Source of the DNA: Cylindrospermum stagnale PCC 7417
GTDB taxonomy: Bacteria > Cyanobacteriota > Cyanobacteriia > Cyanobacteriales > Nostocaceae
Assembly (NCBI RefSeq): GCF_000317535.1
Contig: NC_019757.1
Coordinates: 5,111,501 to 5,175,500 of the forward strand
Direction of reading: 5' to 3'
DNA length: 64,000 bases
Part shown: positions 2,446 through 62,403 of the stretch, in pieces
Layout of the letters: each line of letters begins with the position of its first letter
Numbering within the stretch: position 1 is the stretch's first letter
Made by a program: the position numbers and the translations under genes
The notes under the pieces: generated by a model
What the model saw: only the letters and a program-made list of their open reading frames with translations
What the model was told of the DNA's origin: nothing
Databases searched by the model: none

Positions 2446-4971
2446 CTAGTAGGGTCCTAGAAATCTTTCACCATTAAAATGAATCATGTGTGAGGGGTCA
2501 CTAGCTATCCAAACTTCCGTTTCCCATGCTATTTGATGTATAAATTTCAACAAAATACTGCGATCCGGAAAAGATGTCACAAAAACTAGCCCAGCAGTAG
2601 AATTACCAAAAAGAGATTTCAATTCATTTTGACGTTGTACATTGATTGGGCCATTACTAGATACTGCCTCGACAATTACTAACCAATTCTTTGCAGTGTA
2701 GTGAATAATTATATCCGGAATTTTTTGAGCTTGAGTTAGAGTTATTCCTAGCGATAACAATGCATTCGTGTCACAATACCCATATTTAGAACCAGCATCA
2801 CCTAAATACAAAATATCTCCCCCAGGCGTAAATCTAGGACAAAACTCATCAATGACTTTTTTAATTAATATATTTTGTCCACCAGCAGTAATCTTAATAT
2901 CAAGTTTATTAGAGATTTTGATAGGTATCATTTGCATCTCACGATGCTGGGCATAACGAGCCTTAAGTGTTTCAATAGAAACGAGATAATCTCGTAAATT
3001 CGTATTCCACTGCTCAGTTTCATAAGTTTGAAGTAAAGCAAGAATTGCAGATTCAATCTGATAAACTGTCTTCGGACTATTTGGCGGTCTATCTGGTTTG
3101 TCTGGATTCTTGCCTAAAATTCCGGCATTTACAAAAGCAGCTACAGTCTCGTCTCTTATGGTTTCACGAGTGTTAGGTTTATAGATTCGCCCATAATTTT
3201 CAGCAATAAATTTCATTACCGGAGTAATGCCTCGCATAGGAGCCTTTGCATCTGCCCATGAGTCCGCAGTTCTAAGGTCTAAAAAGGACAACAGTACCAG
3301 AGCCGACCGCTCATTATATTGCTCACGAGGTAGACCTAAATCCTTAATGATTGCTAGTGCTTCGTCAATCCGCTTAGTTGTCTTTATAGGATCAAATTCA
3401 GTTGAGTTGATAGGCATACTAAAAAGCTCTTCAATGTAACTATCAATTTTATCTTGACCTATCAGTCCTGACGCACATTTTTCGCCAAGAACCTCTAATT
3501 GAGCACTGTTAGGATACTTTAAACTTCTTAAGTCTGTGCTGTTAACTTGAGTATGTCCATTGAATTGACGAAAATACTTGTCAAACAAGGTAGAATTTAA
3601 AAATGCAGCTAGTCCCCAAGCAAGTTTTTTAGACAAACCAGCACCATTGCAATGATAATAGTTGAGATGATTTTCAAAGCCAATCTTCGGCTGTGGATAC
3701 TGATTTGGGTCAAAAACTGCTGCTAGAATTCTTCTGTGTTCTTCTTTGGCCGTGAATCGCTTTGTCAGAACATAAATACCTGATGGTAACAGTAAATTTT
3801 CTGTTTCTGGACAGGCAACAATAGCGTTTGGCTTTTTATAATTTAGTTTTGGCCAAATAATAGAGCGATTGACTAAATGACCAGGGTAAAGTAGAGGTAC
3901 TGTATCTTTTTCTGGAAAATCTCTGAGAAATTTAGTTGTACGAAAATCAACAACTTTACCAGTAGATACTGTTAAACCAAGATCCTCCAGAGAGCAGGTG
4001 AGTGTCATCATTCGTTTAGCTATCTGCTGATCAAGGCTATTTGTCACAATGCGAATATACAAATTTGGATCATTCGGTTGAACTAACTGAGAATGATTAA
4101 TTCGATGAACAGTTGGAACTTTATCTTCAGGCCCCACGCTGGAGATGATTTCTACCTCTGCGTCATCATTTTTCGCTTTTACAACATGAAATATAATGTT
4201 TTCTTGGAGAACACTGTTATCTTTAAAAGCCTGATTGCGTGATTCAAAAATATGAATTTTTTGAAAGTGCATAGTCTCCAGAAAAGTTTTTCTGAAATTC
4301 CTAAAGTAGGAGCCATTACAAAAACTGCGTGGCGTAATAGCCACTAATTGCCCATTTGGAGCCAGTAACCGACTAGCAAGCCAGATAAATGCAGTGTAGA
4401 GGTTAGATGTTTCTATTTTGATTCGACTCAATATTTTTCGATATTCTGATTTGCTTTGAATTTTTCGATAAGGGGGATTGAGGATTACACAATCAAACTC
4501 CTGCAAAGGAGAGGAGAATAATCCACATTCCAGTATATTTACCCCTACTTCAATGAAATCCTCTTGAAGAACATTTGCGGTAAAATGAATACCAGCCTTT
4601 TTACACTCAGACTCACACATCTTGATAGTGTCACGAAGATACTTTATCAGACTAGAGTCAATTTCGTAGGCAGTAATAGATAAATACTTAGGTTTTTTTT
4701 CTAGCTGGCATACTCGCCACACAAAAGCTGCCGACAGTGAGCCAATTCCAGCACCAGCATCTAAAAGACGTATAGAAGAAAGTGATACATCAAACATTAA
4801 AGCAAGTAAGCAAGCAGTTGGTACAGGAGTCAGAAATTGCCCCATCGTTATCTGCTGTGTAGAATTGAGCCGGCTCGTTGCCTCTACTCGTAATAAATCT
4901 ACACGTTCAATAAGTGATGTCTGAGTATGTTGTGTAAGTTGGTGCGTCTGTTCAAAATCAACTTGTTTCAC
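2446..4971 (-). CDS. Single-chain restriction-modification protein: N6-adenine methyltransferase fused to BsuBI/PstI-type endonuclease
   Basis: The protein has 841 aa. SAM motif I DAGAGIG is at 71-77 and the catalytic motif CVILNPPY is near residue 165, the order of gamma-class adenine-N6 methyltransferases such as M.PstI and Eco57I-type enzymes. A target-recognition region follows. The last ~190 residues match the BsuBI/PstI endonuclease family: WLVIVEAVSSNGPI, then GLVFVTSFPDRS, and the ending IAWETEVWIASDPSHMIHFNGERFLGPY-type block. In the prototypes R and M are separate proteins; here one chain carries both. That family cuts CTGCAG, but the specificity of this protein is inference. No separate subunit gene lies beside it. 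Confidence 0.88.
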   Translation of the reverse strand: MKQVDFEQTHQLTQHTQTSLIERVDLLRVEATSRLNSTQQITMGQFLTPVPTACLLALMFDVSLSSIRLLDAGAGIGSLSAAFVWRVCQLEKKPKYLSITAYEIDSSLIKYLRDTIKMCESECKKAGIHFTANVLQEDFIEVGVNILECGLFSSPLQEFDCVILNPPYRKIQSKSEYRKILSRIKIETSNLYTAFIWLASRLLAPNGQLVAITPRSFCNGSYFRNFRKTFLETMHFQKIHIFESRNQAFKDNSVLQENIIFHVVKAKNDDAEVEIISSVGPEDKVPTVHRINHSQLVQPNDPNLYIRIVTNSLDQQIAKRMMTLTCSLEDLGLTVSTGKVVDFRTTKFLRDFPEKDTVPLLYPGHLVNRSIIWPKLNYKKPNAIVACPETENLLLPSGIYVLTKRFTAKEEHRRILAAVFDPNQYPQPKIGFENHLNYYHCNGAGLSKKLAWGLAAFLNSTLFDKYFRQFNGHTQVNSTDLRSLKYPNSAQLEVLGEKCASGLIGQDKIDSYIEELFSMPINSTEFDPIKTTKRIDEALAIIKDLGLPREQYNERSALVLLSFLDLRTADSWADAKAPMRGITPVMKFIAENYGRIYKPNTRETIRDETVAAFVNAGILGKNPDKPDRPPNSPKTVYQIESAILALLQTYETEQWNTNLRDYLVSIETLKARYAQHREMQMIPIKISNKLDIKITAGGQNILIKKVIDEFCPRFTPGGDILYLGDAGSKYGYCDTNALLSLGITLTQAQKIPDIIIHYTAKNWLVIVEAVSSNGPINVQRQNELKSLFGNSTAGLVFVTSFPDRSILLKFIHQIAWETEVWIASDPSHMIHFNGERFLGPY

Positions 4972-5298
4972 TACTTTACTCCTTTATGAAAAGTGGTACA
5001 TAAACTGCACAGAGAATATTACGCTATCGCATCTGATGTACTCAATTACATTGACCACTTTTCTCAAAGGCATTTCCGGCTTATGCACGCACTAAAACCT
5101 TACGGGTTAGCTTGTTGATCGCACTCAAGAAAAGCGATTTGCACCAAAGGACCATCGCGATCGCCTGACTCAGTCCAGCCAGTGATAACGAGAAGCACCT
5201 CCTCAGCACCCTTTACCCCCTTGATAGACAAGGTGTGACATAAAAAGTAGTACAGTGAAAAATGCATCTAGTAGCGTTAGGACTCGACTAAATCACCT
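4972..5298. other. Intergenic region with a HIP1 site, no gene seen
   Basis: This 327-base spacer separates the divergent restriction-modification gene and tpiA. It holds a GCGATCGC-type site near 5156-5164 and probably both promoters. No convincing ORF or terminator is present. Confidence 0.5.
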
Positions 5299-7832: not shown

Positions 7833-8303
7833 ATATGCTCCTATTTAGCTTTTGGGAGAATTTAGCATAAAGCACATGGTACTAGCTTGTCCTACCTTTA
7901 AGTCTAATATTTTGAGGAAAGTGATTTTATGAACATCAGCGGCAATGTTTGGTGATCAGCCGTTGCAAGTCTGACACCTATTCTGCAAGCAGAACAATTT
8001 ACCGAAATGCGATCGCGCAAAGCGCACTTGGTGGAGTAGGCGATCGCGCGGAGCGCAGTGCAGTCGGCGATCGCAATTAAAGCACGTTGATCACACGCTG
8101 GCAAGGACTGCTGACGCCAAGGCCAAGTCCAACACCAACCCTAACGAGTGTCGCAGGCATAACCTAACGCCTCAAAATCTTGTATGTGTGGGGTTTTCAA
8201 CCCATATCATACATCTGTTAGCTTTTTTGAGGAAATTTGCCTAAAACCCTGTCAAACATGTCCATAATGTCGACATCAACACAAAAAAACACTCAATGTC
8301 AGG
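7833..8303. other. Intergenic region with clustered HIP1-type repeats
   Basis: This 471-base spacer has three GCGATCGC-type palindromes within about 70 bases (8010-8077). Between them are GCGCAAAGCGCAC and GCGCGGAGCGCAGTG, the kind of imperfect GC-rich arms seen at 1420-1507. No gene is visible. Downstream it meets the remnant transposon gene at 8304. Confidence 0.6.
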
Positions 8304-8606
8304 ATGCATGAGTGTGGTGTTTGTGGATCTGTGCAGGACAGAGATATTGCTGTTGCTGTTCGCCAAACGTGGCGCGAATGCGCCATAGTTATGCTTCTAG
8401 TAGCTAAAGGCACTCTACCAGGGTTGGGAACAAACCGGGATGAAGTCCGGTTTGCTAACGTAGACTTTGATGTTGCTGGCTCTACTTCACACAACCGGAA
8501 AATTGCGGCTAGCACGAAGCCACTAAAACAAATAAAGCTTCAAAAATCCAATCCTACTGCTCTGGTTGTAGAAACCCGGACATCAACCAAAGGTAGGCTT
8601 GGGTAG
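8304..8606 (+). pseudogene. Remnant of a TnpB-type (IS200/IS605, IS891-like) protein, C-terminal end
   Basis: The frame from 8304 encodes CGVCGSVQDRDIAVAV near its start. This resembles the second half of the TnpB zinc ribbon (CxxC) plus the last RuvC motif (DRDxxAA). It is followed by the low-complexity, Lys- and Ser-rich tail typical of these proteins. The remaining ~280 residues, including the other RuvC motifs, are absent, because upstream DNA is noncoding repeat. I therefore call it a 5'-truncated remnant. Identification rests on one short motif and is moderate. Confidence 0.45.
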
Positions 8607-8612
8607 TTCATA

Positions 8613-10085
8613 CTAGAGTCCAAAAACCCTCAAAAGTCCAAAAATCACACCTAAAGGCCCGGCAACAGTGTTGAGACCATCAGTAGCCCTGGCCAAGCCA
8701 GAACGGTTGACCACCACGACATCATTGTTGCGAAGTATAGGATTACGTTCCTCATTAATTCCTTGAGAGAAGTCTACTTTAACTGCACGTTTCGTGACAG
8801 TACCATTAGGGTTGAGACGAATCAAATCTACAGTAGCTGTTTTAGCTCTAGAATCGTTGAATCCGCCAGCAGCAAGCAGTGCTTGATTTAATGAGCTATT
8901 CGGCTGAAGCGCTGTCACCCCTGGTGCTTTGACTTCGCCCACCACACCTACTTGAATTCTTGTAGGAGACAACGTAGTAGTAGCTAATTGAGTAGCTTCT
9001 GCTGAACTAATCTCTGTTGCCGTAGGAATAATAATCGTATCTCCATCTTGCACAACTACGTCTTGATTAATATCGCCACTCTCCAATAGTTGCCAAAGAT
9101 TGATATCTATAGTTTGCTCTGATCCCGTTCTCGTGGGTCGGCGTAACTTAAGATTGCGAATATCAGCTTGTGATGTAATTCCCCCAGCTAGTTGAATTGT
9201 CCGCATCACCGTTGGCAGACCACTGCCAGCTGCGCCACCAGCCCCTCCATCTGTAGCACCTGCGGTGACAAGATAGGAACCGGGGCGGTTAACTTGACCA
9301 ATTATTGCTACCGTGCGGGGTGTGGTTGGGCTGGCAGCAAAGTTAGCTGCAAATAAATTGCGTGCTTCTGCCACGTTGAAGTTAGTTGCAGTTGGCACAA
9401 CTATCGTGTCTCCATCCCGTAAGGTAATATCCTGGGATATCCTGCCTGTTTGGACGAGTTCTTTCAAATTGAGAGTGACGACTTGCTCTGAAGAGCGTCC
9501 TATCTTGCGTCGTAATTCAACTTGAGTCACATCTGCCGACAACGTCACCCCTTGCGCTGTCGTGAGTGCGGCTAACACGGTTGGGTATTGTACCCCTGGA
9601 TTGTTTCCCGCGCCTCCGCTTAAACTCAGAGTGTAAGCCCCTGGTCGTGTCACCTCTCCGGCAACAAAAATATTTATGGGACGAGGTGATAACAGATTGA
9701 CGGAGATCAGAGGACGTTTGAGAAAGCGAGCGTATCTTTTGGCAATTTCGTCAGCAGCCTGTTCGGTTGTTAATCCAAGAACGGGTACACTGCCAATTAA
9801 AGGTAGGTTAATCGAACCACCTGGGGGAATTTGGTATTCACCTGTATATTCTGGTACTTCAAATACATTGACACGTATGAGATCACCGCCGCCTAAAGAG
9901 TAATCTGTAGCTAACGGTGAAGTTGATAATACTGCTTTTGTAGTTGGTGATACTGGTTGTAAAGTTGGTAATCCTGGTTGTCTCTGAGCTAGGCTGGTAG
10001 ACGGCAAAGCGATATTGACAGCCGTGAACAAAGCCGCACCTGCAAATGACTGGGTGAGGAATTTCCGTAAACCTATATTAATCAT
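8613..10085 (-). CDS. Outer-membrane polysaccharide export protein (Wza-like, SLBB domains)
   Basis: The 490-aa protein has an N-terminal signal peptide (hydrophobic to about residue 33, ending SLAQ). The polysaccharide export domain follows (YSLGGGDLIRVNVFEVPEYTGEYQIPPGGSINLPLIG, about 62-140). Next come repeated SLBB-like modules, recognisable from FVAGEVTRPGAYTL, AIIGQVNRPGSYLV and GVVGEVKAPGV, each with an LRDGDTIVVPTAT or VQDGDTIIIPTAT segment. It would form the outer-membrane channel for exopolysaccharide. No tyrosine kinase, polymerase or glycosyltransferase gene is adjacent. Confidence 0.92.
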   Translation of the reverse strand: MINIGLRKFLTQSFAGAALFTAVNIALPSTSLAQRQPGLPTLQPVSPTTKAVLSTSPLATDYSLGGGDLIRVNVFEVPEYTGEYQIPPGGSINLPLIGSVPVLGLTTEQAADEIAKRYARFLKRPLISVNLLSPRPINIFVAGEVTRPGAYTLSLSGGAGNNPGVQYPTVLAALTTAQGVTLSADVTQVELRRKIGRSSEQVVTLNLKELVQTGRISQDITLRDGDTIVVPTATNFNVAEARNLFAANFAASPTTPRTVAIIGQVNRPGSYLVTAGATDGGAGGAAGSGLPTVMRTIQLAGGITSQADIRNLKLRRPTRTGSEQTIDINLWQLLESGDINQDVVVQDGDTIIIPTATEISSAEATQLATTTLSPTRIQVGVVGEVKAPGVTALQPNSSLNQALLAAGGFNDSRAKTATVDLIRLNPNGTVTKRAVKVDFSQGINEERNPILRNNDVVVVNRSGLARATDGLNTVAGPLGVIFGLLRVFGL

Positions 10086-20238: not shown

Positions 20239-20909
20239 GCAAAAGTTTCTAGTGCAAAACACCAGTATTGTTGAGTTGGTAAACTGCAAAATATCTTTGA
20301 GCCTGAATATATAGAAATGTAAATAAATATTTTGCACTTGCAGCTTGTATATCCTGGTTGTGATTTTAAGAATGCAAACATCCTAAAGAGCTAGGGTAAG
20401 TCTTCCTTGCTTTAGCGTAGAATAAAGCCTGTAAACTCCCTAAAGCAAGTATTGGTAGCTAAAATTCCTGGATTTTAGAGAACACGTTCAGGGCATAAAA
20501 GATTTATCCCATAAAACCACAGATTTTTTTTTTTGCAAGTCTTGGAATAATTTACCTTTGGTATTCGTTATCAGAAATAAGAACTGCTAATAATGAAGTT
20601 CACAGGTAGAAAAGGAAGTCTGGCTATGAGCAACTATTTTATCTAGACTCTGGCTCATACACTTACGTTTCACTTGTTTTTACAGTTTTTTAAATCTGAG
20701 TGATCCTATGTGTGATGAAGGTTGGAGACACTATTTAGTTGCTTTATGCCTAATCTGTGAAGCCAAAGACCCCGACGCCCTGTGTTGAAGCAGAAATTAA
20801 ACCTCAATATCAGGCTAAGTCAGGCTTTGTATTAGCTTTATGGAGCAGATTAGCTAAGGTTTGATTCCACCCAACTTACTTATTAACTCAATCATTTGGA
20901 GGTTTTCAA
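20239..20909. other. Long leader/promoter region of the lasso-peptide cluster
   Basis: This 671-base AT-rich region contains an ECF-like promoter motif (20544-20569, separate entry), which leaves a transcript leader of about 330 bases. A 26-codon Cys-containing frame at 20708-20788 has no good ribosome-binding site. No other gene is visible. Confidence 0.55.
20544..20569 (+). promoter_or_regulatory. ECF-type promoter motif upstream of the lasso precursor
   Basis: GGAATA (20544-20549), a 16-base spacer and CGTT (20566-20569) resemble the -35/-10 pattern of many ECF promoters. The motif lies in a longer block (about 20526-20590) that is clearly similar to 29606-29670, upstream of the 60-aa secreted peptide. 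In both places it is preceded by TTTTTTGCAAGT-TTGGAATA-type sequence. Confidence 0.55.
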
Positions 20910-21050
20910 ATGACAACGCTAAATCCAACAAAAAAACAGTACTCTCAGCCTGAAATTATTGAGATAGGTGATGCAGTTAGAACAACTTTAGGTCATCATC
21001 GTTGGGGACGTCGAGAACACCACCGCCGTTACTACTACCGTTGGCACTGA
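20910..21050 (+). CDS. Lasso peptide precursor (A), 46 aa
   Basis: A GGAGG at 20898-20902 sits seven bases before the ATG. The leader (residues 1-27) contains Tyr11, Pro14, Ile16, Gly20 and Thr26 spaced exactly as in the lasso leader motif YxxPx[LI]xxxGxxxxxTxG, which the PqqD-like B1 protein binds. Cleavage after Leu27 puts Thr at -2 and gives the core GHHRWGRREHHRRYYYRWH. Gly1 and Glu9 can form a nine-residue macrolactam, leaving a ten-residue tail with bulky Tyr/Arg/Trp plugs. Five His, six Arg and three Tyr make it unusually basic and potentially metal-binding. The cyclase, B1, B2 and exporter genes follow. Activity of the product is unknown. Confidence 0.88.
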   Translation: MTTLNPTKKQYSQPEIIEIGDAVRTTLGHHRWGRREHHRRYYYRWH

Positions 21051-21137
21051 AGTAGAATAACTGCCTCAAAGCCAATTTGCTAATCTTTTGCTCAACTTTA
21101 GCTACTTAAGTAGCTAACTGTCATTCGTAAAAAAATT

Positions 21138-21192
21138 GGGTGAAGAAAATGAAGTAAGTTAGCACTAATTTTCACTTTACTTCACCCTTTTG
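21138..21192 (+). terminator. Hairpin with T-run between lasso precursor and cyclase
   Basis: The arms GGGTGAAG (21138-21145) and CTTCACCC (21180-21187) pair exactly. The interior (AAAATGAAGTAAG with CTTACTTT-like partner bases) can extend the stem with mismatches, and TTTT follows. Placed 90 bases after the precursor stop and 200 before the cyclase, it is probably an attenuator that keeps precursor mRNA in excess. Confidence 0.65.
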
Positions 21193-21392
21193 TAAATTTC
21201 TTAAAATAAAAAATTTACTGACATTACTGCTTCAAGATCATGTTAATAAAGCAGTAATTTTGTATTAGTTTACATTTGTAATTAAGCTAATAGCATTACA
21301 TCTTTATTTTCTAAAGTCGCAATATCTAAGATTTTCCTAAATCAGTAAAACCAAAAAAATGTTAATCAACTATTGAATAAAACTAAAATAAT

Positions 21393-23246
21393 ATGAAACA
21401 TTGGTTTTGTGGTTTTGTAATCCAGGATGATTGTCTTCTAACAAACCTTCCCAAACCATCTAATGGAAAGTTACTTTGGGAAGATACTAATTACTTGTGG
21501 CTCTGTGGAGATTGGAAAAAAAGGCAGGTAATAAAATTTTCTGAATCCTTGGTTAAACTAGCCATAATTGGTAGTTGTCTTGCATCATATGAAACTGTGG
21601 TTAAGTTATTTAAGAAAGCCGTCAGAGAAAGTGAGTATAGCCAACTCATGAGACTGCCAGGCATATATAATTTAATTGTTCAAGATAATGCTGATACATA
21701 TGTATTTGTCGATTCTGCTGGTGTAAAAACTGCATTTTATGCAGTTCATAATTCTGTCATCACTTACTCTTCATTAGCAATAGCCCTACAACAACTGCTG
21801 AAAACTGAAGTAGATCAGTCTTGGCTTGCTACTTTTTTATCAGGTTCGGGGACACTAAGTCTAGTACAAAAACGTACTCCCTTCTGCGGTGTGCAGCCTA
21901 TTCCCCCCGGTCACTATTTACATATTTCATCAGGAAAACTGGCATGTAAGCGCTATTGGTATAAACCGCAGGAATATAAGAGTTTCTCTGATGCGGCTGA
22001 ATATCTGCATGAACAGTTGCTAACTGCTGTCGAGGGAAGAGTCAACTTATACGGCAATATATCTAGCGATTTGAGCGGTGGTTTTGACTCTACGACTCTG
22101 GCTTTAATAGCCTCCAAAGCTTTAGCAAATCAGAGTAAACAATTGGTTACAATAACCGAGAAAACTTTGAGTGCCATTCAATCATCGGACGTCAAATATG
22201 CCCAGCAAGCAGCTAGTCTTTATCCAAATATTAATCCTGTAATGGTTGAGGATTTTAATCTTCCTAGTGAATATAGTGGTTTGGAATCAGTTCCTTTAAT
22301 AGATATACCAGATCCAGTAGTTCTTGATATGGCAAGAATTATTTATAAAATGGAAATTGTCAAATTAAGCGGCTCTCAATTACATATTAATGGAGAAGGT
22401 GGAGATGCAGTACTTTCATCGAGTTGTTCTTATTGCGTGGATCTATTAAAGCAAGCAAAAATTATAGGATTTTTGCAGCACATTTTAGGATGGTCAAGAT
22501 TAGCAACTTGTTCACCACTCCCATTGATAATGAGTTCTATAAACCTAAATTTTAGTTCTTATCAGCAGTGGCTAATGCAGAAAATTAAAAACAAAACTTT
22601 ACTAGTTACAACATCTAATAATCTAACTAATCTTGAGGAAACTATCACTTGGGATTCTCTTCCTAAGTCTACTAGTTGGTATACCAATAAGTTAGTAGAT
22701 TTAGTTTTGGAAGAACTATACAAGTGGGCACTAATAGCGACACCTTTTGCTGATAATCCTGGTGAACATCAAGCTATAGCTATTATTCAAGGGATGGGGT
22801 CTAGTATTAAAGCTGAACAGCAGGTAGCCGATATTTATGATGTCAATTTAGAATCTCCTTTTCTTGATTCTTCGGTAATTGATGCCTGTCTGTCTGCAAA
22901 ACCAGAAGAGCGGACAAGTCCATTTGCCTACAAACCACTTTTAATCAAAGCATTTCAGCAGGATTTACCGCAGAGTATCTTTAAACGTAATACTAAAGGG
23001 GAATATACAGCAGATGAGTTAATTGGTTTTCGAGAAAACCGACATATAATCAAAGAAATTTTAAATACCTCTCTTTTAGCTGATATGGGACTAGTAGACA
23101 TAAAAAAATTACAAACTGCCATGCAATATTTTAGTATACGATTGTCTGATAATATGTCATTTTTCAATACTACACTATCACTTGAAATTTGGTTACGTCG
23201 ATTGGCGCAAAACAATTATAGTTTTTGGTCGAAAGAGGATTTCTAA
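21393..23246 (+). CDS. Lasso peptide macrolactam synthetase (C; asparagine-synthase-like)
   Basis: The 617-aa protein is an AsnB homologue. The N-terminal glutaminase-like half lacks the leading catalytic Cys (it begins MKHWFCGFV). The synthetase half carries the ATP-binding PP-loop SSDLSGGFDSTTLALIA near residue 230 and a downstream INGEGGDAVL segment. In lasso pathways this enzyme adenylates the side-chain carboxylate of the acceptor (here Glu9) and closes the ring with Gly1. Position between precursor and B1 supports this role. The ATG at 21393 lies 342 bases after the precursor stop. Confidence 0.88.
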   Translation: MKHWFCGFVIQDDCLLTNLPKPSNGKLLWEDTNYLWLCGDWKKRQVIKFSESLVKLAIIGSCLASYETVVKLFKKAVRESEYSQLMRLPGIYNLIVQDNADTYVFVDSAGVKTAFYAVHNSVITYSSLAIALQQLLKTEVDQSWLATFLSGSGTLSLVQKRTPFCGVQPIPPGHYLHISSGKLACKRYWYKPQEYKSFSDAAEYLHEQLLTAVEGRVNLYGNISSDLSGGFDSTTLALIASKALANQSKQLVTITEKTLSAIQSSDVKYAQQAASLYPNINPVMVEDFNLPSEYSGLESVPLIDIPDPVVLDMARIIYKMEIVKLSGSQLHINGEGGDAVLSSSCSYCVDLLKQAKIIGFLQHILGWSRLATCSPLPLIMSSINLNFSSYQQWLMQKIKNKTLLVTTSNNLTNLEETITWDSLPKSTSWYTNKLVDLVLEELYKWALIATPFADNPGEHQAIAIIQGMGSSIKAEQQVADIYDVNLESPFLDSSVIDACLSAKPEERTSPFAYKPLLIKAFQQDLPQSIFKRNTKGEYTADELIGFRENRHIIKEILNTSLLADMGLVDIKKLQTAMQYFSIRLSDNMSFFNTTLSLEIWLRRLAQNNYSFWSKEDF

Positions 23247-23384
23247 AAACAGCAAAAGTTGCAGAATTGTCCTGAAATAAAGTTGAATATTAAGGTGGGT
23301 TATTTTTTGCTCTTAACGAAGTCCTTTACTACCATACTAAAACAAGACAAAGTTTTAGCTTTAGTTATTAATAGGAGTAAATTC

Positions 23385-23660
23385 ATGAAAGAAGTTTCTA
23401 TTCCACATCACATTTACACAAGTTTTTTTGAAGAAAGTGCAGTCTTATTAGATGCCAAAAAAAATATTTATTATGCTTTGAATGATAGTGCGGCTGATTT
23501 TTGGAAGTTATTAGTAAAATCTGACTCCGTTGAAGAGACGCTGAAAGAAATTTCAGATTTATATGAATGTTCTTCTACTGTTGTTTTAAAAGATATGGAG
23601 GCTCTAGTAGACCGTCTTCTAAAAGCTGGACTGCTAGAAATAAAAAGAAGTAATCTATGA
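23385..23660 (+). CDS. Lasso peptide leader-binding protein B1 (PqqD-like RRE)
   Basis: From the ATG at 23385, preceded by AGGAG (23374-23378), the protein is 91 aa, the usual size of a stand-alone RiPP recognition element. The open frame reaches back to 23259 but has no ribosome-binding site there. The sequence shows the PqqD pattern: an early VLLDAKKNIYYALNDSAADFWKLL (strands then helix), LKEISDLYECSSTVVLKDMEALVDRLLKAGLLEI (winged-helix end). Its role is to bind the YxxP leader motif of the precursor and present it to B2 and C. Confidence 0.85.
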   Translation: MKEVSIPHHIYTSFFEESAVLLDAKKNIYYALNDSAADFWKLLVKSDSVEETLKEISDLYECSSTVVLKDMEALVDRLLKAGLLEIKRSNL

Positions 23661-23775
23661 AAAAATTAAATTGTTGGTGATGCTTCGATATTTTCTAATT
23701 AAGTCTTTTGATGCGCGAAACCATAATTTTATGTATACCATCAAGCAAAGCTGAATAAAAATATGATGCTATATA

Positions 23776-23867
23776 CAGCACTTTGCGTAATGGTCAGGCA
23801 CAATAATTAGGCAAATAAGTTTAAAAACCAAGATAAACCCTGTACCAATTGGTCGTGCAAAGTGCTG
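23776..23867. mobile_element. Short MITE-like element with CAGCACTTTGC ends
   Basis: The arms ATACAGCACTTTGC (23773-23786) and its exact reverse complement (23857-23870) enclose about 70 bases, with TA on both outer sides. TA target duplication and this type of end fit IS630/Tc1-type non-autonomous elements. It sits in the gap between B1 and B2. Confidence 0.7.
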
Positions 23868-23917
23868 TATTTACAGGAAAAACTCAGTTTTTGATTTTAA
23901 ACAGGGAGAGAGATATT

Positions 23918-24337
23918 ATGGATGATAGAATGTCGTTAACTCCTATTGACATAAATTTAAAATGGAGTGAGCGCTTAACAGGTCTATTTGTTGTCATAGT
24001 TGCATACATAGCTATACGTTGTTTGAGTATTTTTAGAATTAGTAAAATTCTTAGCGTACTCAAGAGATACTGCTTGCGTGAAATCACATATGAGGAGGCA
24101 GAGATTGTATGGGCAGCAGTACGTAAGTCGAATTTTTTGCTATTAGGAAGACTAGCATGTCTAGAATTTTCTTTGGCTTTTGTGCTCTTTGCACTAACTA
24201 AAGGTCTGTCATCAACCTGGTGTGTAGGTGTATCTAATGAACCAGTTCAAGCCCATGCATGGGTAGAAATTAGTGATACACCCTTTCGTGAAGTGGATAA
24301 TTTTGAATATCACTTTAGAAAATTGATTGCCGTTTAA
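23918..24337 (+). CDS. Lasso peptide leader protease B2 (transglutaminase-like)
   Basis: From the ATG at 23918 (MDDRMSLTP, GGGAGAG upstream) the protein has 139 aa, normal for B2. The catalytic Cys lies in GRLACLEFSLAFVLFAL and the His in AHAWVEI, matching the CL..SLAL...HAWVE pattern of lasso B2 proteases. An N-terminal hydrophobic stretch (about 20-40) is usual in the family. The family Arg after the Cys (CLxRS) is Phe here. It removes the leader after Leu27 of the precursor. The MITE at 23776-23867 separates it from B1. Confidence 0.83.
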   Translation: MDDRMSLTPIDINLKWSERLTGLFVVIVAYIAIRCLSIFRISKILSVLKRYCLREITYEEAEIVWAAVRKSNFLLLGRLACLEFSLAFVLFALTKGLSSTWCVGVSNEPVQAHAWVEISDTPFREVDNFEYHFRKLIAV

Positions 24338-24863
24338 AATAAATCCTTCAGTTCGTTTATTTTGCTCCAAGTTGTTAGAATTGATGACGAGAAAATTAAG
24401 GTTATAGCTCATCAAAAGGCTTAGAGGTTGTTTAAAAACTTTTAGGCGAATATAACTCGCTACTACACAAACAAAGCCTGCGCGGAAAGACTGAAAAATC
24501 AAGGGTCTCAAACCCACATAGGTGGGTTTTGTCTGTGTAGTCGCGAATTATATTCGCCCATTTAAGTAATAAATTAGACTTCTCAATCATCCTCTAATAA
24601 CCAGTGAAATTAAGTACAGAGTGGCTTATAAAGCTTGTTTTATATGATTGTCATGGACTGACTAACGGGACGACTAGAGCTAGTCACAAAGTTCCTATTC
24701 TGATTAAGTTAAATTTTTTAAAGGAAATAATTAGTAACTGGTACTTAAAAGCATTAAATCGAGTCAAAAGAGTCAAGGTTACAAGCCAAGCCGCTAAATT
24801 GGAACTTTAGTTTTATCCAAAACTAATTTATCATAAGAAGGCTTATAAAAAAGGATTAAATTA
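24338..24863. other. Gap between B2 and the exporter, largely occupied by a hairpin element
   Basis: The 526-base gap contains the element at 24421-24597 and then AT-rich DNA. A 68-codon GTG frame (24604-24810) lacks a ribosome-binding site and family likeness; I do not call it a gene. Confidence 0.55.
24421..24597. mobile_element. MITE-like hairpin element with TTAGAGG ends
   Basis: The ends read TTAGAGGTTGTTT (24421-24433) and, inverted, TTAGAGGATGATT (24585-24597), two mismatches in 13. Inside, GCGAATATAACTCGC (24445-24459) pairs with GCGAATATAATTCGC inverted (24544-24558), and the pairing extends through CTACACA. The whole element can therefore fold into one long hairpin. The ends resemble those of the element at 19286-19523. 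Confidence 0.7.
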
Positions 24864-26684
24864 ATGATTGGCTTTCAAGAATGGCTTGATTCTCTACGTA
24901 AATCCACAAAAGTTTTATTTCGGGCTTTAACATTATTATGGAAAGCGGCTCCAAGGGAGACCATCTTTCTAGCTGCTGCTATTCTGTTGCAGGGGCTTGT
25001 TCCAGCATTAAGCATTTGGATTAGCAAGTTAGTAGTAGATACAGTAGCAGCAGCTTTGACTCAAGGTGAGAATTTAGGGCAATTATCAATTGGTATTTTA
25101 GTAATAGGATGGGTTGGAGCTTTCCTATTAGATTTCCTTCTAAACCCTTGGGTACAAGCAGTTCAGGGTAATATTAATGATAAGCTAACGGCTCATATTA
25201 GCTTACGTTTAATGCATAAAGCAGATACTTTTGCAGATTTGAGCCGCTTTGAAGACCCTGAGTTTTATAACGAGCTACAAATTCTCCAAAAGGAAGTTAG
25301 CTATCAGCCACTGAATTTACTTCAGAATTTAGCTGGAGGAGGTCAGTCGTTCATTACCTTGGTAGCTATGATAGTTTTACTGGTTCCCTTAGGGTTTTGG
25401 ATTCCTTTGGTGATTGCGATCGCAGCCATACCTCAGATAGTTGTTTCTTTTCAGTATGAGACGAAAATTTGGTTAACTCTGTTTGAAAATAGTCCACAAG
25501 CTCGGCGAATGCAGTATTGCACATCAGTAATGCTTACTGATGCTTATGCTAAAGAAGTGCGGTTGTTTAAGACAGGTTCATTTTTTATTGGTATTTACCT
25601 GCAAGCATTTCAATCTTTACACCGATCTATGCGACATCTGCGGCAAAAGCAAGCTCTATGGACGACTGGCTTGGCCCTGATAAGTACGCTAGGAAATGGT
25701 TTTGCCTTTTTCTGGGTAGTGCAACAGGCTTTTAGAAGACAAGTTAGTCCAGGAAGTGTACTTCTGTTTGTAGAATCGCTGGCTGCCCTCCAGCGAAATC
25801 TTGAAGAATTTGTCAAAGCTAGTTTAGAACTTTATGAAACATTGTTGTATATGCAACAGTTTTTCAACTTCCTAGATACTGAATTATCAATGCCACTGTG
25901 TATTCCAGGAAGACCTGTGCCAGATATGATTCACTCTGGCATTACTTTTGATAAAGTTCACTTTCGCTACCCAGACAATCGCTTGGCTTTAATAGATATT
26001 TCCTTTACTCTTTACCCTCATCAAACAGTAGCCATAGTTGGGGAAAATGGAGCTGGCAAAAGCACGTTAGTAAAGTTACTCACCAGGCTGTATGACCCTA
26101 CAGAAGGAGCGATTTTGATTGATGGTGTAGATCTAAGAGAATTAAATCTAGATGACTGGCGACAGCAGATTGCAGTAGTATTTCAAGACTTTGGTCGCTA
26201 CGCCATTACACTGGGGGAAAATGTTGCTTTGGGAGACCTTAAAGCTTTAGAACATCCAGAGCTTCTTAGACATGCAATTGAAAAAGCTGGTATGCTTGAA
26301 TTAGTCGAAAAGTTTTCGACTCAAGAAAATACTCCTTTAGGTAAGCAGTTCGGTGGTACAGAGCTTTCGGGTGGGGAGTGGCAAAAATTAGCTCTATCGA
26401 GAGCGTTTGTACGGACACAAGCTCAGTTATTGATTCTTGATGAGCCTACTGCGGCGCTTGACCCTCGTAGCGAGTACGAAGTTTATCATCGCTTTGTTGA
26501 GTTAGCTAAGGGCAAGACTACTCTCCTGATCACTCATCGGCTAGCGTCGGTACGTATGGCTGACCGCATCTTAGTTCTCAAGGCTGGTCGTTTAATCGAA
26601 CAGGGCACTCACCAAGAACTTTTACAGCGCGAAGGCGAGTATGCCACGCTTTGGAATATGCAGGCAAAAAATTACAACTTTTAA
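24864..26684 (+). CDS. ABC exporter (fused membrane and ATPase domains), probable lasso exporter D
   Basis: This 606-aa half-transporter has an N-terminal six-helix membrane domain (about 30-330). The ATPase domain carries Walker A GENGAGKSTLVKLL, signature LSGGEWQKLALSRAF, Walker B LLILDEPTAALD and the switch His in LLITHRLAS. It belongs to the MsbA/McjD-like exporter class and has no N-terminal peptidase domain, as expected for a lasso exporter because B2 already cuts the leader. It is downstream of B2 in the same direction and probably gives export and self-immunity. Confidence 0.87.
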   Translation: MIGFQEWLDSLRKSTKVLFRALTLLWKAAPRETIFLAAAILLQGLVPALSIWISKLVVDTVAAALTQGENLGQLSIGILVIGWVGAFLLDFLLNPWVQAVQGNINDKLTAHISLRLMHKADTFADLSRFEDPEFYNELQILQKEVSYQPLNLLQNLAGGGQSFITLVAMIVLLVPLGFWIPLVIAIAAIPQIVVSFQYETKIWLTLFENSPQARRMQYCTSVMLTDAYAKEVRLFKTGSFFIGIYLQAFQSLHRSMRHLRQKQALWTTGLALISTLGNGFAFFWVVQQAFRRQVSPGSVLLFVESLAALQRNLEEFVKASLELYETLLYMQQFFNFLDTELSMPLCIPGRPVPDMIHSGITFDKVHFRYPDNRLALIDISFTLYPHQTVAIVGENGAGKSTLVKLLTRLYDPTEGAILIDGVDLRELNLDDWRQQIAVVFQDFGRYAITLGENVALGDLKALEHPELLRHAIEKAGMLELVEKFSTQENTPLGKQFGGTELSGGEWQKLALSRAFVRTQAQLLILDEPTAALDPRSEYEVYHRFVELAKGKTTLLITHRLASVRMADRILVLKAGRLIEQGTHQELLQREGEYATLWNMQAKNYNF

Positions 26685-26744
26685 ACTGCTGAAGTTGTGA
26701 TTTTTAAACTGTCGTAGAACTTTGCAACTATAAATGGATTTGAA

Positions 26745-28268
26745 ATGTTAGCTACAGAGCAGCAAGGTAAAAGTAAAAATAGATTCAAACCTGGAACTCG
26801 ATGGTTAGCCTGGTCGGGTATTTTAACTTTTCTCAGCTTTAGTGGTTGGTTATTTTACATATCAAATTATGATAAATCTACTGATGCACCTGTAATGCCT
26901 ATTATTACTGTTAATAGGGGCAATGTTGAAATTACAATTAATGAAAGTGGCATCGTAGAGATGGGGAATCAACAAAGCCTAAAATCTCCAGGAGAAGTTG
27001 CAGTAGAGCGTGTACTGGTAAAAGTTGGCGATCGCGTTATGTCTGGTCAGCAGTTGCTGATTCTTCGCAATCCACAGGAACAAACTAGCCTGACTGAGCA
27101 GGATTTACTAATTCATCAACAAGAACTTACCCTATTACGCAATCAGCAGAAAGTTGGCGAAGCAAAAGAAAAGCTGACTGCTGCTTACAAGGAAGCTGAA
27201 GAGCGGAATAAACAACAACAATTGCAGATTGAAAAACAGAGACTTAGCATAGCACGTAGCCGCCAAAAAATTATTGAAGCAAAAGAAAGGCTTGCTACCG
27301 ACCAAAAGAAAGTTGAAAATTCTAAATTTTTAGCAGCAAAAGGTGTTATTTCTCGCAATGCTCTCCAACAAGAGTTAACAGCACTTAATCAGGCTGAGGC
27401 TAATTTGAGAGATGCAGAGTTGGAAGCCAGCACTCAAATAACTGAACTTCAGCGCCTAAGTCTAGAGCAACAACGCTCTTTAGAACAGCAAAATAACATT
27501 TTAACAGCTAGGTCAGAATTGCGAGAAGCTCAGTCAGCAGTTAATACTTCAAACCAAGAAATTCAACGCTTGCAAGTAGAGCGACAAAGGATCAAAAAGC
27601 GACAACAAAATAATATTGTGAATGCACCTATCACAGGAAAAATTCTTGACTTAAAAGTGAAAAATGGCGATGGCATCAAGTTTGGTGATGTTTTACTTAC
27701 ACTAGGCGATACCACAAAAGAAGAGGTGAAACTTCAGCTTGGGACACTTGAAGCTGCTAAAGTTCGAGTTAACCAACTGGCTCGCATCAAAGTTATTGGC
27801 CCCAATGCAAAAACATTCCTTGGAAAAGTGCAGAGTGTCTATCCTCAAGCGATTATTGCTTCTGAAGTATCAGCAGCTAGCCAATCAGCTGGGCAATCAC
27901 CTCAAGCTAGAGTACCAGTAACTGTGCAGCTAAATAAACCAACTAACACTTTAATTCCCGGTAGTCAAGTCAGTGTGGAACTCGTTGTACAGCAACGTCA
28001 GAATGTAGTGACTTTAAAGTTAGAAGCAATTCAACGTTCTGAAGCCCAACCCTACGTTTGGATACAGGATAATCAAGGTAAAGCTCACAAACAGACTGTG
28101 ACTTTAGGCGTAGAGGGGGCAACTACTGTAGAGGTAACATCTGGCTTAAAAGCAGGTGATAAAGTTATACTGCCTGCGCCAGAAATTGAACTGGAACCAG
28201 GAATGCCAATAATAGAAGGTTCATCAAATGACCAGTCCAACAGTCCTGCTTCACCCAACACCGAGTAA
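26745..28268 (+). CDS. HlyD-family membrane-fusion (adaptor) protein
   Basis: The 507-aa protein has one N-terminal membrane helix (about 22-42), then a biotinyl-lipoyl-like half (SGIVEMGNQQSLKSPGEVAVERVLVKVGDRVMSGQQLL). A long Gln/Glu/Lys-rich coiled coil (about 115-285) leads to the second lipoyl half (NAPITGKILDLKVKNGDGIKFGDVLLTLG). A barrel and C-terminal domain follow, with VELVVQQRQNVVTL and GLKAGDKVIL. It bridges an inner-membrane transporter to the outer membrane. It is 60 bases after the exporter and 68 before the permease, so one operon is likely. Confidence 0.88.
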   Translation: MLATEQQGKSKNRFKPGTRWLAWSGILTFLSFSGWLFYISNYDKSTDAPVMPIITVNRGNVEITINESGIVEMGNQQSLKSPGEVAVERVLVKVGDRVMSGQQLLILRNPQEQTSLTEQDLLIHQQELTLLRNQQKVGEAKEKLTAAYKEAEERNKQQQLQIEKQRLSIARSRQKIIEAKERLATDQKKVENSKFLAAKGVISRNALQQELTALNQAEANLRDAELEASTQITELQRLSLEQQRSLEQQNNILTARSELREAQSAVNTSNQEIQRLQVERQRIKKRQQNNIVNAPITGKILDLKVKNGDGIKFGDVLLTLGDTTKEEVKLQLGTLEAAKVRVNQLARIKVIGPNAKTFLGKVQSVYPQAIIASEVSAASQSAGQSPQARVPVTVQLNKPTNTLIPGSQVSVELVVQQRQNVVTLKLEAIQRSEAQPYVWIQDNQGKAHKQTVTLGVEGATTVEVTSGLKAGDKVILPAPEIELEPGMPIIEGSSNDQSNSPASPNTE

Positions 28269-28336
28269 GTTACCTCTCCCTATCTAGAGTCCGTTACCCT
28301 TGTACTCCTAACTCCTTTTTTCTCCTGCTGCCGAAT

Positions 28337-29509
28337 ATGAGTCTTTCTCTCCAAGACCTTGTTGTCCTTACTATTAAATCATTACTCAGTAATCGATTGC
28401 GTTCTGCTTTAACTACTCTTGGCGTATTTATGGGTGTAGCGGCGGTGAATGCAACTTTTCAGGTAAGTAGTATTAGTCGTGCTGTAATTACTAAACAGTT
28501 GGCAGAGCGAGAAGCACCGCAAGCCTCTGTTTATATCTTAGAAGCAAAAGGTAGGCAACCAAAGTTGGAGGATATGGAGTTCCTACAAAAACGGATAAAA
28601 AATATTCAGGTAATTAGTGCTTACAATTATGTAATTTCTGAGCAAGTCGTCTTTCAGGATCGGACAAGTAAAGCTTTGATACTGGCTGTTTCTGAAAATT
28701 ACTTGCTCACTTCTGGTAGAAAAGTGTTAAAAGGTCGTTTTTTTAATCCTACTGATTTCGTTAACTATCGACCAGTAGCAGTGATTGATAAATTCTTGGA
28801 AGAAAAAATTTTCTCCGGTAAAGATCCTATTGGTAAACTCATATTTACTTCAGGGAGATTATTTATGATTGTCGGAGTTATTGAAACTAAATTAAATATT
28901 GGAGAACAACCTCAAGGTAGTTTATTGATGCCCATTTCAACTTACAGTTCCATGACAGGTAGTCAAAGCATTGATGCAATTTCAATGCGTCCCTACAAGC
29001 TCAAAAATCTGAAGAACCTGGAAAAGCAAGCAACGCAATTATTAAAACAACGCCTTGCAGGCTCAGATATCTTTGGAGCAAATAATGTAGAAGATATTAT
29101 TCAGCAGCAAGAAACTTTGGAACTGGCTACGCGGGGACTGATTGCTGTAGCAATGATTTCGCTGCTTATTGCTGGTGTTGGTATTGCTAATATCACAATA
29201 GCTGCTGTGATTGAGCGTACTGCGGAGATCGGTTTGAGACGAGCTATTGGCGCAACTAAGCTGGAGATACTACAGCAGTTCATTTTGGAAGCAGTAGTTC
29301 TAAGCTTAGTGGGAGGAATAGCTGCAATCATCTCAGTGCATGGATTGACGCTAGTAATTGCTGACACATTTAGCTTGCCATATCGATTTGAGAGCCAAAC
29401 AGCCATGTTGTCTTTGGGTTCAGCTTTGCTGGTAGGTATGGGTGCTTGTCTTTTGCCTGCTATACGTGCTAGCCAACTTGATCCGGTTAAAGCTTTGCGT
29501 GAATCATGA
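28337..29509 (+). CDS. MacB/FtsX-type ABC permease
   Basis: The 390-aa protein shows an N-terminal membrane helix with SLLSNRLRSALTTLGVFMGVAAV. A periplasmic MacB-like core (about 45-260) comes next, then three C-terminal membrane helices with IERTAEIGLRRAIGATKLEILQQFILEAVVLSL. This is the standard permease of MacAB/DevBC-type export systems. Those need a separate ATPase, and none follows here. The permease must borrow an ATPase encoded elsewhere or work with the upstream exporter, which would be unusual. Confidence 0.88.
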   Translation: MSLSLQDLVVLTIKSLLSNRLRSALTTLGVFMGVAAVNATFQVSSISRAVITKQLAEREAPQASVYILEAKGRQPKLEDMEFLQKRIKNIQVISAYNYVISEQVVFQDRTSKALILAVSENYLLTSGRKVLKGRFFNPTDFVNYRPVAVIDKFLEEKIFSGKDPIGKLIFTSGRLFMIVGVIETKLNIGEQPQGSLLMPISTYSSMTGSQSIDAISMRPYKLKNLKNLEKQATQLLKQRLAGSDIFGANNVEDIIQQQETLELATRGLIAVAMISLLIAGVGIANITIAAVIERTAEIGLRRAIGATKLEILQQFILEAVVLSLVGGIAAIISVHGLTLVIADTFSLPYRFESQTAMLSLGSALLVGMGACLLPAIRASQLDPVKALRES

Positions 29510-29622
29510 TTCTCAATATGCTCAGGTTGGTGAAATTTATTGGTTGAGGTTAGGAGGGTGAATGCAGGTATTGGAGGAGAAAGACTTCTAGTTTGAACGC
29601 CCTAAAATTTTTTGCAAGTTTT

Positions 29623-29648
29623 GGAATATTTTGCGCTTGGTGATCGTT
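29623..29648 (+). promoter_or_regulatory. ECF-type promoter motif upstream of the secreted peptide
   Basis: GGAATA (29623-29628), a 16-base spacer and CGTT (29645-29648) repeat the arrangement upstream of the lasso precursor at 20544-20569. Similarity extends over about 65 bases, including TTTTTTGCAAGT before the motif and a shared CTGCT after it. Confidence 0.55.
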
Positions 29649-29790
29649 CTAAGTAATAGAAGCTGCTTTGTTAATATCTGAAAGCAGAGCAAGCCGAAAA
29701 TGCGATTAGCTTATGAGTTGTTTGCTTATCCTACATTCTGCGGATGTATGATCGCAAGTTTCGATAATTAACTTATTTAGGAGAATCAAG

Positions 29791-29973
29791 ATGAATACCA
29801 AAGCTATTGCTTTTGCATTTGTATTAGGTATAAGTACATTTTTGAGTACTTGGCAGCAGCCAGCTCAAGGTGCGCGCGGAACTGAGATTACTTCTGGGGA
29901 TAAAAATACCGCTTTCATTAATTTCCAGCATTTGGCACAAAACGATGACGGCGGTGATAACGGCGGTGATTAA
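29791..29973 (+). CDS. Small secreted peptide, 60 aa
   Basis: AGGAG at 29780-29784 precedes the ATG. The product has a clear signal peptide (hydrophobic 4-20, probable cut near QPAQGA) and a short mature part ending NDDGGDNGGD, which is acidic and Gly/Asp-rich. No family is recognised. It follows the HlyD/permease pair, shares the ECF-type promoter block with the lasso precursor and ends at a strong hairpin. A role as second exported peptide, surface protein or companion of the transporter is inference. Confidence 0.65.
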   Translation: MNTKAIAFAFVLGISTFLSTWQQPAQGARGTEITSGDKNTAFINFQHLAQNDDGGDNGGD

Positions 29974-50836: not shown

Positions 50837-51079
50837 TTACTCTTCTCTCGCAAATCGCCCCCTAACACATTCATATTCATCCTCAAGAAGCCAAAACTTT
50901 ACATCCTCATAAGATTGTGAAGAGAACAAAACCTTATATCCTTCGATAGGATCAAGAATATACCACCAACCATTACTATTATTGATAAGCATTAGGATGT
51001 AAGGGGGAAAACCAGTTGGATCTACCCAAATTTCTAAAAATTTCCAATCACTTAGCAGATTTTGTTCTTGGGACAGCAT
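50837..51079 (-). CDS. Small acidic protein overlapping the toxin stop, candidate immunity protein
   Basis: The 80-aa soluble protein is rich in Trp and acidic residues (WKFLEIWVDPTGFPPYILMLINNSNGWWYILDPIEGYKVLFSS). No family is recognised. Its ATG at 51079 lies inside the 3' end of the toxin gene (32-base overlap), a layout that couples translation, as with cognate immunity genes. It is followed by the SUKH-3 gene. Confidence 0.65.
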   Translation of the reverse strand: MLSQEQNLLSDWKFLEIWVDPTGFPPYILMLINNSNGWWYILDPIEGYKVLFSSQSYEDVKFWLLEDEYECVRGRFAREE

Positions 51080-53318: not shown

Positions 53319-53342
53319 ACACAAGTTATTGTAATAATGTTA

Positions 53343-57011: not shown

Positions 57012-57130
57012 ACGCAAGTTATTGTAATAATGTTATTAACAGCTTTGTAACTAATTTAACCTTTTGACTGAGTTTTGCCAAGCACGTAGGTGAATATTTA
57101 CTAAATTAGCTGAAAATCAAGGAACTAATT

Positions 57131-62064: not shown

Positions 62065-62403
62065 TCAGCCAGTGTAGAACGGCAGAACTTGTATGAAACG
62101 ATAACTACAGAGAACTAAAGCCCCAATCGAAGGAACCAAACCCTTCAAACTTTGTAATCGTGATTTTATGCTAATGCTGCGGTAAGACACAATTGACGCT
62201 AAACCAGCACAAAATAAGCCTAAACCAGACAAACACAAGATAACTAGAGATGAATCTGAATCCACTTGCTCGGCTAGGCTGGGTTCATCAGACCATTCAT
62301 AGGGATACAAGGGAATAAAATAGCTCAGAATGCCCAAGGCATAAGCAGAAAAGTTGCTGAGAAATATTCCGACACATTTTAAATTAGAACCTTGCTTAAT
62401 CAT
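62065..62403 (-). CDS. Small membrane protein, candidate immunity protein for the lysozyme-like effector
   Basis: The 112-aa protein has three hydrophobic segments (about 10-28, 51-72 and 88-105), with an acidic loop YPYEWSDEPSLAEQVDSDS between the first two. No family is recognised. Its ATG overlaps the end of the DUF4157 lysozyme-like gene by eight bases, so the two are coupled. A membrane protein with a periplasmic loop directly after a cell-wall-active effector fits an immunity role by position only. Confidence 0.65.
   Translation of the reverse strand: MIKQGSNLKCVGIFLSNFSAYALGILSYFIPLYPYEWSDEPSLAEQVDSDSSLVILCLSGLGLFCAGLASIVSYRSISIKSRLQSLKGLVPSIGALVLCSYRFIQVLPFYTG

Follow-up and report, generated by a model that had tools for sequence, protein, structure and literature searches.

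A predicted lasso peptide cluster with a cationic core in Cylindrospermum stagnale PCC 7417 and its cyanobacterial relatives

Background

Cyanobacterial lasso peptide clusters have been reported through genome mining, as described in excerpts of PMC9332814 and PMC11392904. In albusnodin, acetylation of Lys10 appears essential, according to the available part of a review (PMC9266682). Lariocidin is described in the available text of PMC11451635 as a cationic lasso peptide that binds the ribosome and acts as an antibiotic, and its cluster has a secretion gene; the excerpted description gives its ring as Ser1-Asp8. For triculamin and lariocidin, the portion available of PMC13352647 describes lysine acetylation as a means of self-resistance. 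In this study, a stretch of 64,000 nucleotides (nt) of Cylindrospermum stagnale PCC 7417 (assembly GCF_000317535.1, contig NC_019757.1, positions 5,111,501 to 5,175,500 of the forward strand; hereafter the window, in whose coordinates positions are given) was analysed, and a lasso peptide cluster that begins with a small precursor gene at position 20910 and encodes a highly basic predicted core is described.

The window very probably holds an intact-looking lasso peptide cluster that belongs to a distinct cationic cyanobacterial subfamily, as judged from the sequences of the cluster and its relatives. Such a subfamily, marked by a cationic core with Arg before the ring-closing Asp or Glu, was not recognised in the literature on albusnodin-type, cyanobacterial and cationic lasso peptides among the matches listed. 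The chemistry of the peptide is predicted well, and its function is not predicted well.

Gene content of the cluster

Seven genes run in one direction, all of them open at full length, in the order precursor, cyclase, B1, B2, ATP-binding cassette (ABC) exporter, MacA and MacB. The cluster comprises the following features:

20910-21050, forward strand: lasso precursor A, 46 amino acids (aa), with the leader at residues 1-27 and the predicted core GHHRWGRREHHRRYYYRWH at residues 28-46.
21393-23246, forward strand: lasso cyclase C, 617 aa, asparagine-synthetase-like (NF033561, 320.4 bits; cut-off 300).
23385-23660, forward strand: PqqD-like leader-binding protein B1, 91 aa (PF05402, 51.5 bits; gathering score 23.4).
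23918-24337, forward strand: transglutaminase-like leader protease B2, 139 aa (NF033537, 69.8 bits; cut-off 33).
24864-26684, forward strand: ABC exporter, 606 aa (MsbA is the top NCBIfam match, at 279.7 bits against a cut-off of 602).
26745-28268, forward strand: periplasmic adaptor of the MacA/HlyD type (TIGR01730, 104.8 bits; cut-off 94.9).
28337-29509, forward strand: MacB-type permease without an ATPase domain of its own (PF12704 and PF02687, both over their gathering scores).
20528-29515, forward strand: whole block common to the three nearest relatives by blastn, with gaps inside.

The leader reads Y-SQ-P-E-I-IEI-G-DAVRT-T-L-G, an exact fit to the pattern YxxPx[LI]xxxGxxxxxTxG, and thereby carries both the YxxPx element and the Thr at position -2 that mark lasso precursors. 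The core starts with the small residue Gly1 and has its single acid at Glu9, within the 7-9 range of ring-closing Asp or Glu residues, and the predicted Gly1-Glu9 ring leaves a ten-residue tail. Six Arg, five His, three Tyr, two Trp and no Lys were counted in the core, and the net charge is +5 (here and below, the charge takes in Arg and Lys, the C-terminus as a free acid and a second acid where present, and leaves out His).

The precursor with its exact leader, the order of genes from cyclase to ABC exporter, the nine-residue ring and the counts of His, Arg and Tyr had been put forward in a preliminary description of this DNA, and each of these agrees with the open reading frame at 20910-21050, the profile scores and the position of Glu9; the two Trp residues had gone unmentioned. 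The same description regarded the cluster as complete at 26684. All biosynthetic genes do lie within that span, but its end comes too early, since the MacA and MacB genes extend to 29509 and the shared block covers 20528-29515.

The seven-gene order is identical in all four members of the closest clade, namely, the window and the loci L043, L044 and L055, which belong to HT-58-2 and two Komarekiella genomes. The blastn span was 20528-29515 against L043 and L044 and 20542-29509 against L055, and the six genes besides the precursor are 67-86% identical to those of these relatives. Left of the block, L044 offers just 160 more bases for comparison; outside the block, the sole extra blastn match was a stretch of 60-64 nt, which links 29604-29667 to the repeat at the left end. 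The gene set is not a chance assembly, because leaders of the same type stand beside cyclase relatives elsewhere and the three nearest relatives keep 85-89% leader identity to the window.

Predicted biosynthesis

An asparagine-synthetase-like cyclase, a PqqD-like B1 and a transglutaminase-like B2, the enzyme combination expected of a lasso cluster, are all present. In the cyclase, five of the six positions of the SGGFDS motif are invariant across 15 aligned rows, and the Phe is nearly so. A sequence search of solved structures with the cyclase returned only AsnB and a hydroxyamidotransferase. The predicted cyclase structure (mean predicted local distance difference test score, pLDDT, 62.9) matched beta-lactam synthetase best (Foldseek E 6.7e-16, TM-score 0.43), and beta-lactam synthetase, carbapenam synthetase and AsnB were all among its matches, with best-chain TM-scores of about 0.43-0.51; at the level of the overall fold, this model supports a putative amide-forming lasso cyclase. 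B1 showed weak sequence matches to the solved structures of TfuB1 (E 0.0031) and TbiB1 (E 0.095). The best start of B2 is the ATG at 23918, which gives the 139 aa found in most relatives, and an alignment of 11 B2 proteins shows no variation at its Cys81 or His113; the predicted B2 structure was left unused because pLDDT is below 50 at residues 103-123, where the catalytic His sits.

By analogy with established lasso biosynthesis, B1 would bind the YxxPxI leader, B2 would cut after Thr-Leu, and the ATP-dependent cyclase would join Gly1 to the side chain of Glu9 while the tail threads. The expected product is a 19-residue lasso peptide with a monoisotopic mass of 2726.335, in which Tyr and Trp would be the likely steric plugs. 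The calculated ions are 909.786 (3+) and 682.591 (4+), and the mass calculated for the linear core is 2744.346. Threading itself cannot be revealed by sequence, and the three nearest relatives have long tails, which leaves room for a branched macrolactam in unthreaded form. We consider such a product very unlikely, given the dedicated lasso B2 and cyclase families, the PqqD-like B1 and the bulky Tyr or Trp residues that follow the ring acid.

Relatives and core signature

At E <= 1e-40, cyclase relatives were found in 4 of 388 genomes of the order, the window's own included, and in another draw of 388 genomes, taken from the class, the NF033561 cut-off was exceeded by the window's own genome alone. 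Matches at E <= 0.001 occurred in 241 of the 388 class genomes, and they are uninformative because 11 of 14 control genomes match as well. No cyclase relative was found by tblastn in any of 41 candidate viral stretches, and plasmids gave distant relatives only (in all 79 records the best place stayed below 60% identity, and 33 of them reached a query coverage of 80% or more).

A scan of named genomes yielded 13 loci with cyclase relatives, all of them cyanobacterial (Komarekiella, Microseira, Nostoc, Scytonema, Scytonematopsis, Tychonema, Spirirestis and HT-58-2). The family set of 16 loci consists of the window, these 13, the locus of G132 and a broken second locus (L011) of G091. A precursor of the same leader type was recognised in 14 of the 16 loci, giving 15 distinct cores. 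The two loci outside the 14, where no precursor was recognised, are L011 and L047; the contig of the latter stops 586 nt past B2. All precursors but one were found with leader patterns that consider no core residue past the first; the exception (L050) was chosen by eye from a looser listing.

For comparison, 34 of 291 class genomes had a match above the cut-off of NF033535, the common cyanobacterial lasso cyclase model. The control set comprised 31 loci with short flanks, namely, 30 NF033535 loci (of 37 matches) and L023. Cores were parsed at 17 of these loci (23 cores) and at none of the others, and precursor-like leaders with unparsed cores (e.g., L070, L078, L080, L090 and L096) are outside the count.

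In all 15 family cores an Arg stands directly before the ring acid, and every other core position is less constant. The ring acid occupies position 9 in 12 cores and position 8 in the other 3, the first ring residue is Gly, Ala, Ser or Leu, and the net charge ranges from +1 to +9. Calculated from Arg content as if the rows were independent, the Arg rule has a log10 P of -8.8 for the 15 cores and about -4.5 for eight representatives, values that serve as guides only because the rows are related. Among the 23 control cores, Arg precedes the acid once (at L023, which is outside the NF033535 set), and the median net charge is -2 with a maximum of 0. Since all 15 family cores are positive and carry this Arg, against none and one of the 23 controls, respectively, the basic core is, on the predicted sequences, a property of the clade and the opposite of the usual cyanobacterial lasso peptide. 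The preliminary description had singled out the window core as unusually basic; this is borne out relative to the controls, but not as a peculiarity of one peptide.

Within the closest clade, the cores of HT-58-2 and the two Komarekiella genomes have 30-38 residues and contain HGG or GGYGG repeats, and they share 42-53% identity with the window core, compared with the much higher identity of the leaders given above.

Two loci of the family set were observed to have further peculiarities. L011, on contig 303 of G091, is a second Microseira lasso-like locus in which the cyclase is interrupted by a stop codon. Scytonematopsis L049 has two cyclases (3293-5176 and 8001-9860) and, on the other strand, two precursors with identical cores.

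Export genes and possible target

The ABC exporter is 83% identical in L055, L043 and L044; in the same loci, the MacA-type adaptor occupies the equal position with 71-73% identity and the MacB-type permease shares 85-86%. A gene for a TolC-type outer-membrane protein follows next in L043, where it was scanned, and has a counterpart in L044 by BLAST grouping. Inner-membrane passage of the peptide would fall to the ABC exporter, and its release from the cell to MacA-MacB with a TolC-type channel, a route that may also protect the producer. Outside, the surface of Arg and aromatic residues could bind a polyanion of a competitor, which might be the ribosome, as for lariocidin, or the lipopolysaccharide and outer membrane.

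The composition of the core had been taken in the preliminary description to suggest binding of metal, membrane or nucleic acid, all of which may be considered. Under the first of these, the His-rich tail would belong to a secreted metal-binding peptide, that is, a metallophore or metal buffer. His residues number five in the window core, seven in both Komarekiella cores, which have HGG repeats, and two in HT-58-2, and the MacA-type adaptor matches the metal efflux adaptor model TIGR00999, although below its cut-off (65.3 bits against 319.3). However, 8 of the 15 family cores are without His, the genes scanned in the block gave no above-cut-off match to a metal-uptake or metal-sensing family, and a cationic cluster equipped for export only suits an effector better than a scavenger. 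A role in metal binding therefore seems quite improbable. Arg and aromatic residues are found throughout the family and His is not, which favours an anionic target over metal; by analogy, the peptide is most likely secreted and would act on a polyanion, be it ribosomal RNA or the outer membrane.

Expression signals and repeat elements

The following features lie between the genes of the cluster and at its borders:

20683-20906, forward strand: conserved 5' region with the ribosome-binding site TTTGGAGG and a short degraded TnpB-type remnant inside (76% mean column identity over four loci).
21138-21191, forward strand: hairpin and T-run between precursor and cyclase (GGGTGAAG..CTTCACCC-TTTT).
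23773-23873, no strand assigned: element in the B1-B2 gap with inverted repeats at 23770-23786 and 23857-23873 (two further genome matches, 76% identical).
24418-24597, no strand assigned: repeat element resembling a miniature inverted-repeat transposable element, between B2 and ABC exporter (inverted repeats 24445-24478 and 24525-24558).
20529-20588, forward strand: 60-nt imperfect direct repeat, left copy (identity to 29608-29667, 78%).
29608-29667, forward strand: right copy of this repeat, just outside the cluster (only these two copies in a search of the own genome).

The ribosome-binding site and the 5' region are kept in all four loci of the closest clade. Inside the region, the 65 nt at 20787-20851 are 82% identical to a site elsewhere in the genome, where a protein fragment bearing a TNB domain (PF07282, Cas12f1-like) is encoded. 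A known riboswitch was also considered for the 5' region and is not supported, since the region has no Rfam match; part of it is the TnpB-type remnant. The hairpin and T-run recur with small changes in L055, L043 and L044, and the hairpin could be an attenuator that gives more precursor than enzyme. The right copy of the direct repeat was observed upstream of a 60-aa open reading frame (29791-29973) with a signal-peptide-like start by eye.

A genome search with 24338-24863 returned 43 matches including the query itself, and all the others fall within 24418-24597. The presence of repeat elements in the B1-B2 and B2-ABC gaps, which are wider in the window than in the three nearest relatives (257 nt against 92-107 and 526 nt against 300-347, respectively), raises the alternative that mobile repeats split the operon and that, in this Cylindrospermum strain, the cluster is unexpressed or in decay. 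We regard this as unlikely because the seven genes are open at full length, the six besides the precursor retain the identity to the nearest relatives reported above, and the upstream region and hairpin are conserved.

Other loci in the window and genome

A second B2-like gene of the same genome (L012) was considered as part of a second lasso cluster and set aside, because no recognised cyclase was present in the 19-kb listing of open reading frames of at least 80 aa and no precursor turned up with the leader pattern. At 3702-13138 of L012, genes for a PqqD-like protein (by eye), a glycosyltransferase, an HPr-kinase-like protein, the B2-like transglutaminase, an ABC-exporter-like protein (by eye) and an NTP_transf_5 protein lie together.

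On the minus strand of the window, the proteins encoded at 51048-53324 and 55770-57017 each have an eCIS core domain, accompanied by DUF6861/DUF6972 in one and by a match to a CHAP domain in the other, and they look like cargo of a contractile injection system. An AAA ATPase (57131-59104) is encoded near them, and a further protein at 62396-64000 (minus strand) shares the string HELTHVVQQ with both.

Discussion

Several results weigh against placing an intact, expressed and exported product of the window in a distinct cationic subfamily. The precursor falls below both curated lasso precursor cut-offs (NF033525, 17.5 bits against 30; NF033521, 15.6 against 19). Two family members (L052 and G132) are only weakly cationic at +1, and the 15 cores are related, with two loci each from three genomes, and thus amount to fewer than 15 independent observations. 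The core is not the faster-changing part everywhere: between the window and Microseira it is 69% identical against 59% for the leader. The two Komarekiella loci are 96-97% alike in both parts. With these exceptions, core diversification reads for the nearest clade and not for every pair. The hairpin was not called by a consensus terminator scan, and the two repeat elements, which break no gene, could lower expression of the operon. No gene for an outer-membrane channel was seen within the window block. Among the 290 other genomes of the order that were searched, 72 have MacB-type homologues, with identities of at most 62%; the pair is not lasso-specific, and MacA/MacB look like a borrowed general exporter.

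More tentatively, and with considerable doubt, the family may be a candidate separate class with the following traits: (i) an obligatory Arg beside the ring-closing Asp or Glu, acting as a substrate rule of the cyclase or as an Arg clasp around the isopeptide bond; (ii) a cationic aromatic tail, in the nearest relatives of 22-29 residues with Gly/His repeats, which goes beyond the need of a threaded loop; (iii) a dedicated MacA-MacB-TolC exit; and (iv) action on an anionic target, for example the ribosome or lipopolysaccharide.

The 15 distinct natural cores behind related leaders constitute a variant series in which the requirement of the cyclase for the invariant Arg and the role of the cationic tail can be addressed, and the closest relatives, with their long Gly/His tails, raise the question of the maximum tail length of a lasso peptide.

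Comparison with known systems

The window cyclase passes the albusnodin/ikarugamycin model NF033561, and some family members resemble that type in having a Gly1-acid9 ring followed by acid-x-R-R-x-Y: the Amycolatopsis AA4 core GLGMGHSEDKRRAYN, whose cluster has a GNAT gene, has acid9-x-R-R-x-Y in common with the cyanobacterial cores GGGLADTRDQRRFYW and GRYRQGHRDHRRYYYR. A match to this cyclase model does not by itself determine the kind of core, because in Streptomyces WZ-12 a cyclase annotated as albusnodin/ikarugamycin family accompanies the acidic core GTNNFDHADDTEYKNA. These points would suit an ordinary albusnodin-family lasso peptide that has drifted to a basic composition. However, residue 10 of the window core is His, the core has no Lys to be acetylated as the excerpted review describes for albusnodin, and no GNAT acetyltransferase was found among nine scanned proteins in or beside the cluster. 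The window precursor stays below the NF033525 cut-off, and of five precursors of relatives, four scored 13.5-20.6 bits with this model and one had no match. The cyanobacterial cyclases branch apart from the actinobacterial ones, in a comparison with two outgroup rows only, and the family also differs in the Arg that always precedes the acid, in a much higher number of Arg and aromatic residues, and in the exporter with MacA/MacB. Drift from albusnodin is quite unlikely on this evidence, and the window is not filed as albusnodin because of the missing Lys, the absence of GNAT among the scanned genes and the low precursor score.

The placement in a separate cationic subfamily also distinguishes the locus from the common cyanobacterial type. 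The two share the cyanobacterial host, the YxxPx leader and the asparagine-synthetase-like cyclase, whereas the common type has neutral or acidic cores that all but once lack the Arg before the acid, and the window cyclase does not reach the NF033535 cut-off (90.2 bits against 525).

Compared by description and not by sequence, with lariocidin as presented in the available excerpts, the predicted window peptide is likewise a short lasso core dense in positive charge, with a secretion gene in the cluster. It differs from lariocidin and triculamin in its Gly1-Glu9 ring (Ser1-Asp8 in lariocidin), in the lack of Lys, in showing no acetyltransferase among the scanned genes, and in its Gram-negative export genes. 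On these features the window peptide is not placed in that family, and by analogy it may nevertheless work like lariocidin and triculamin.

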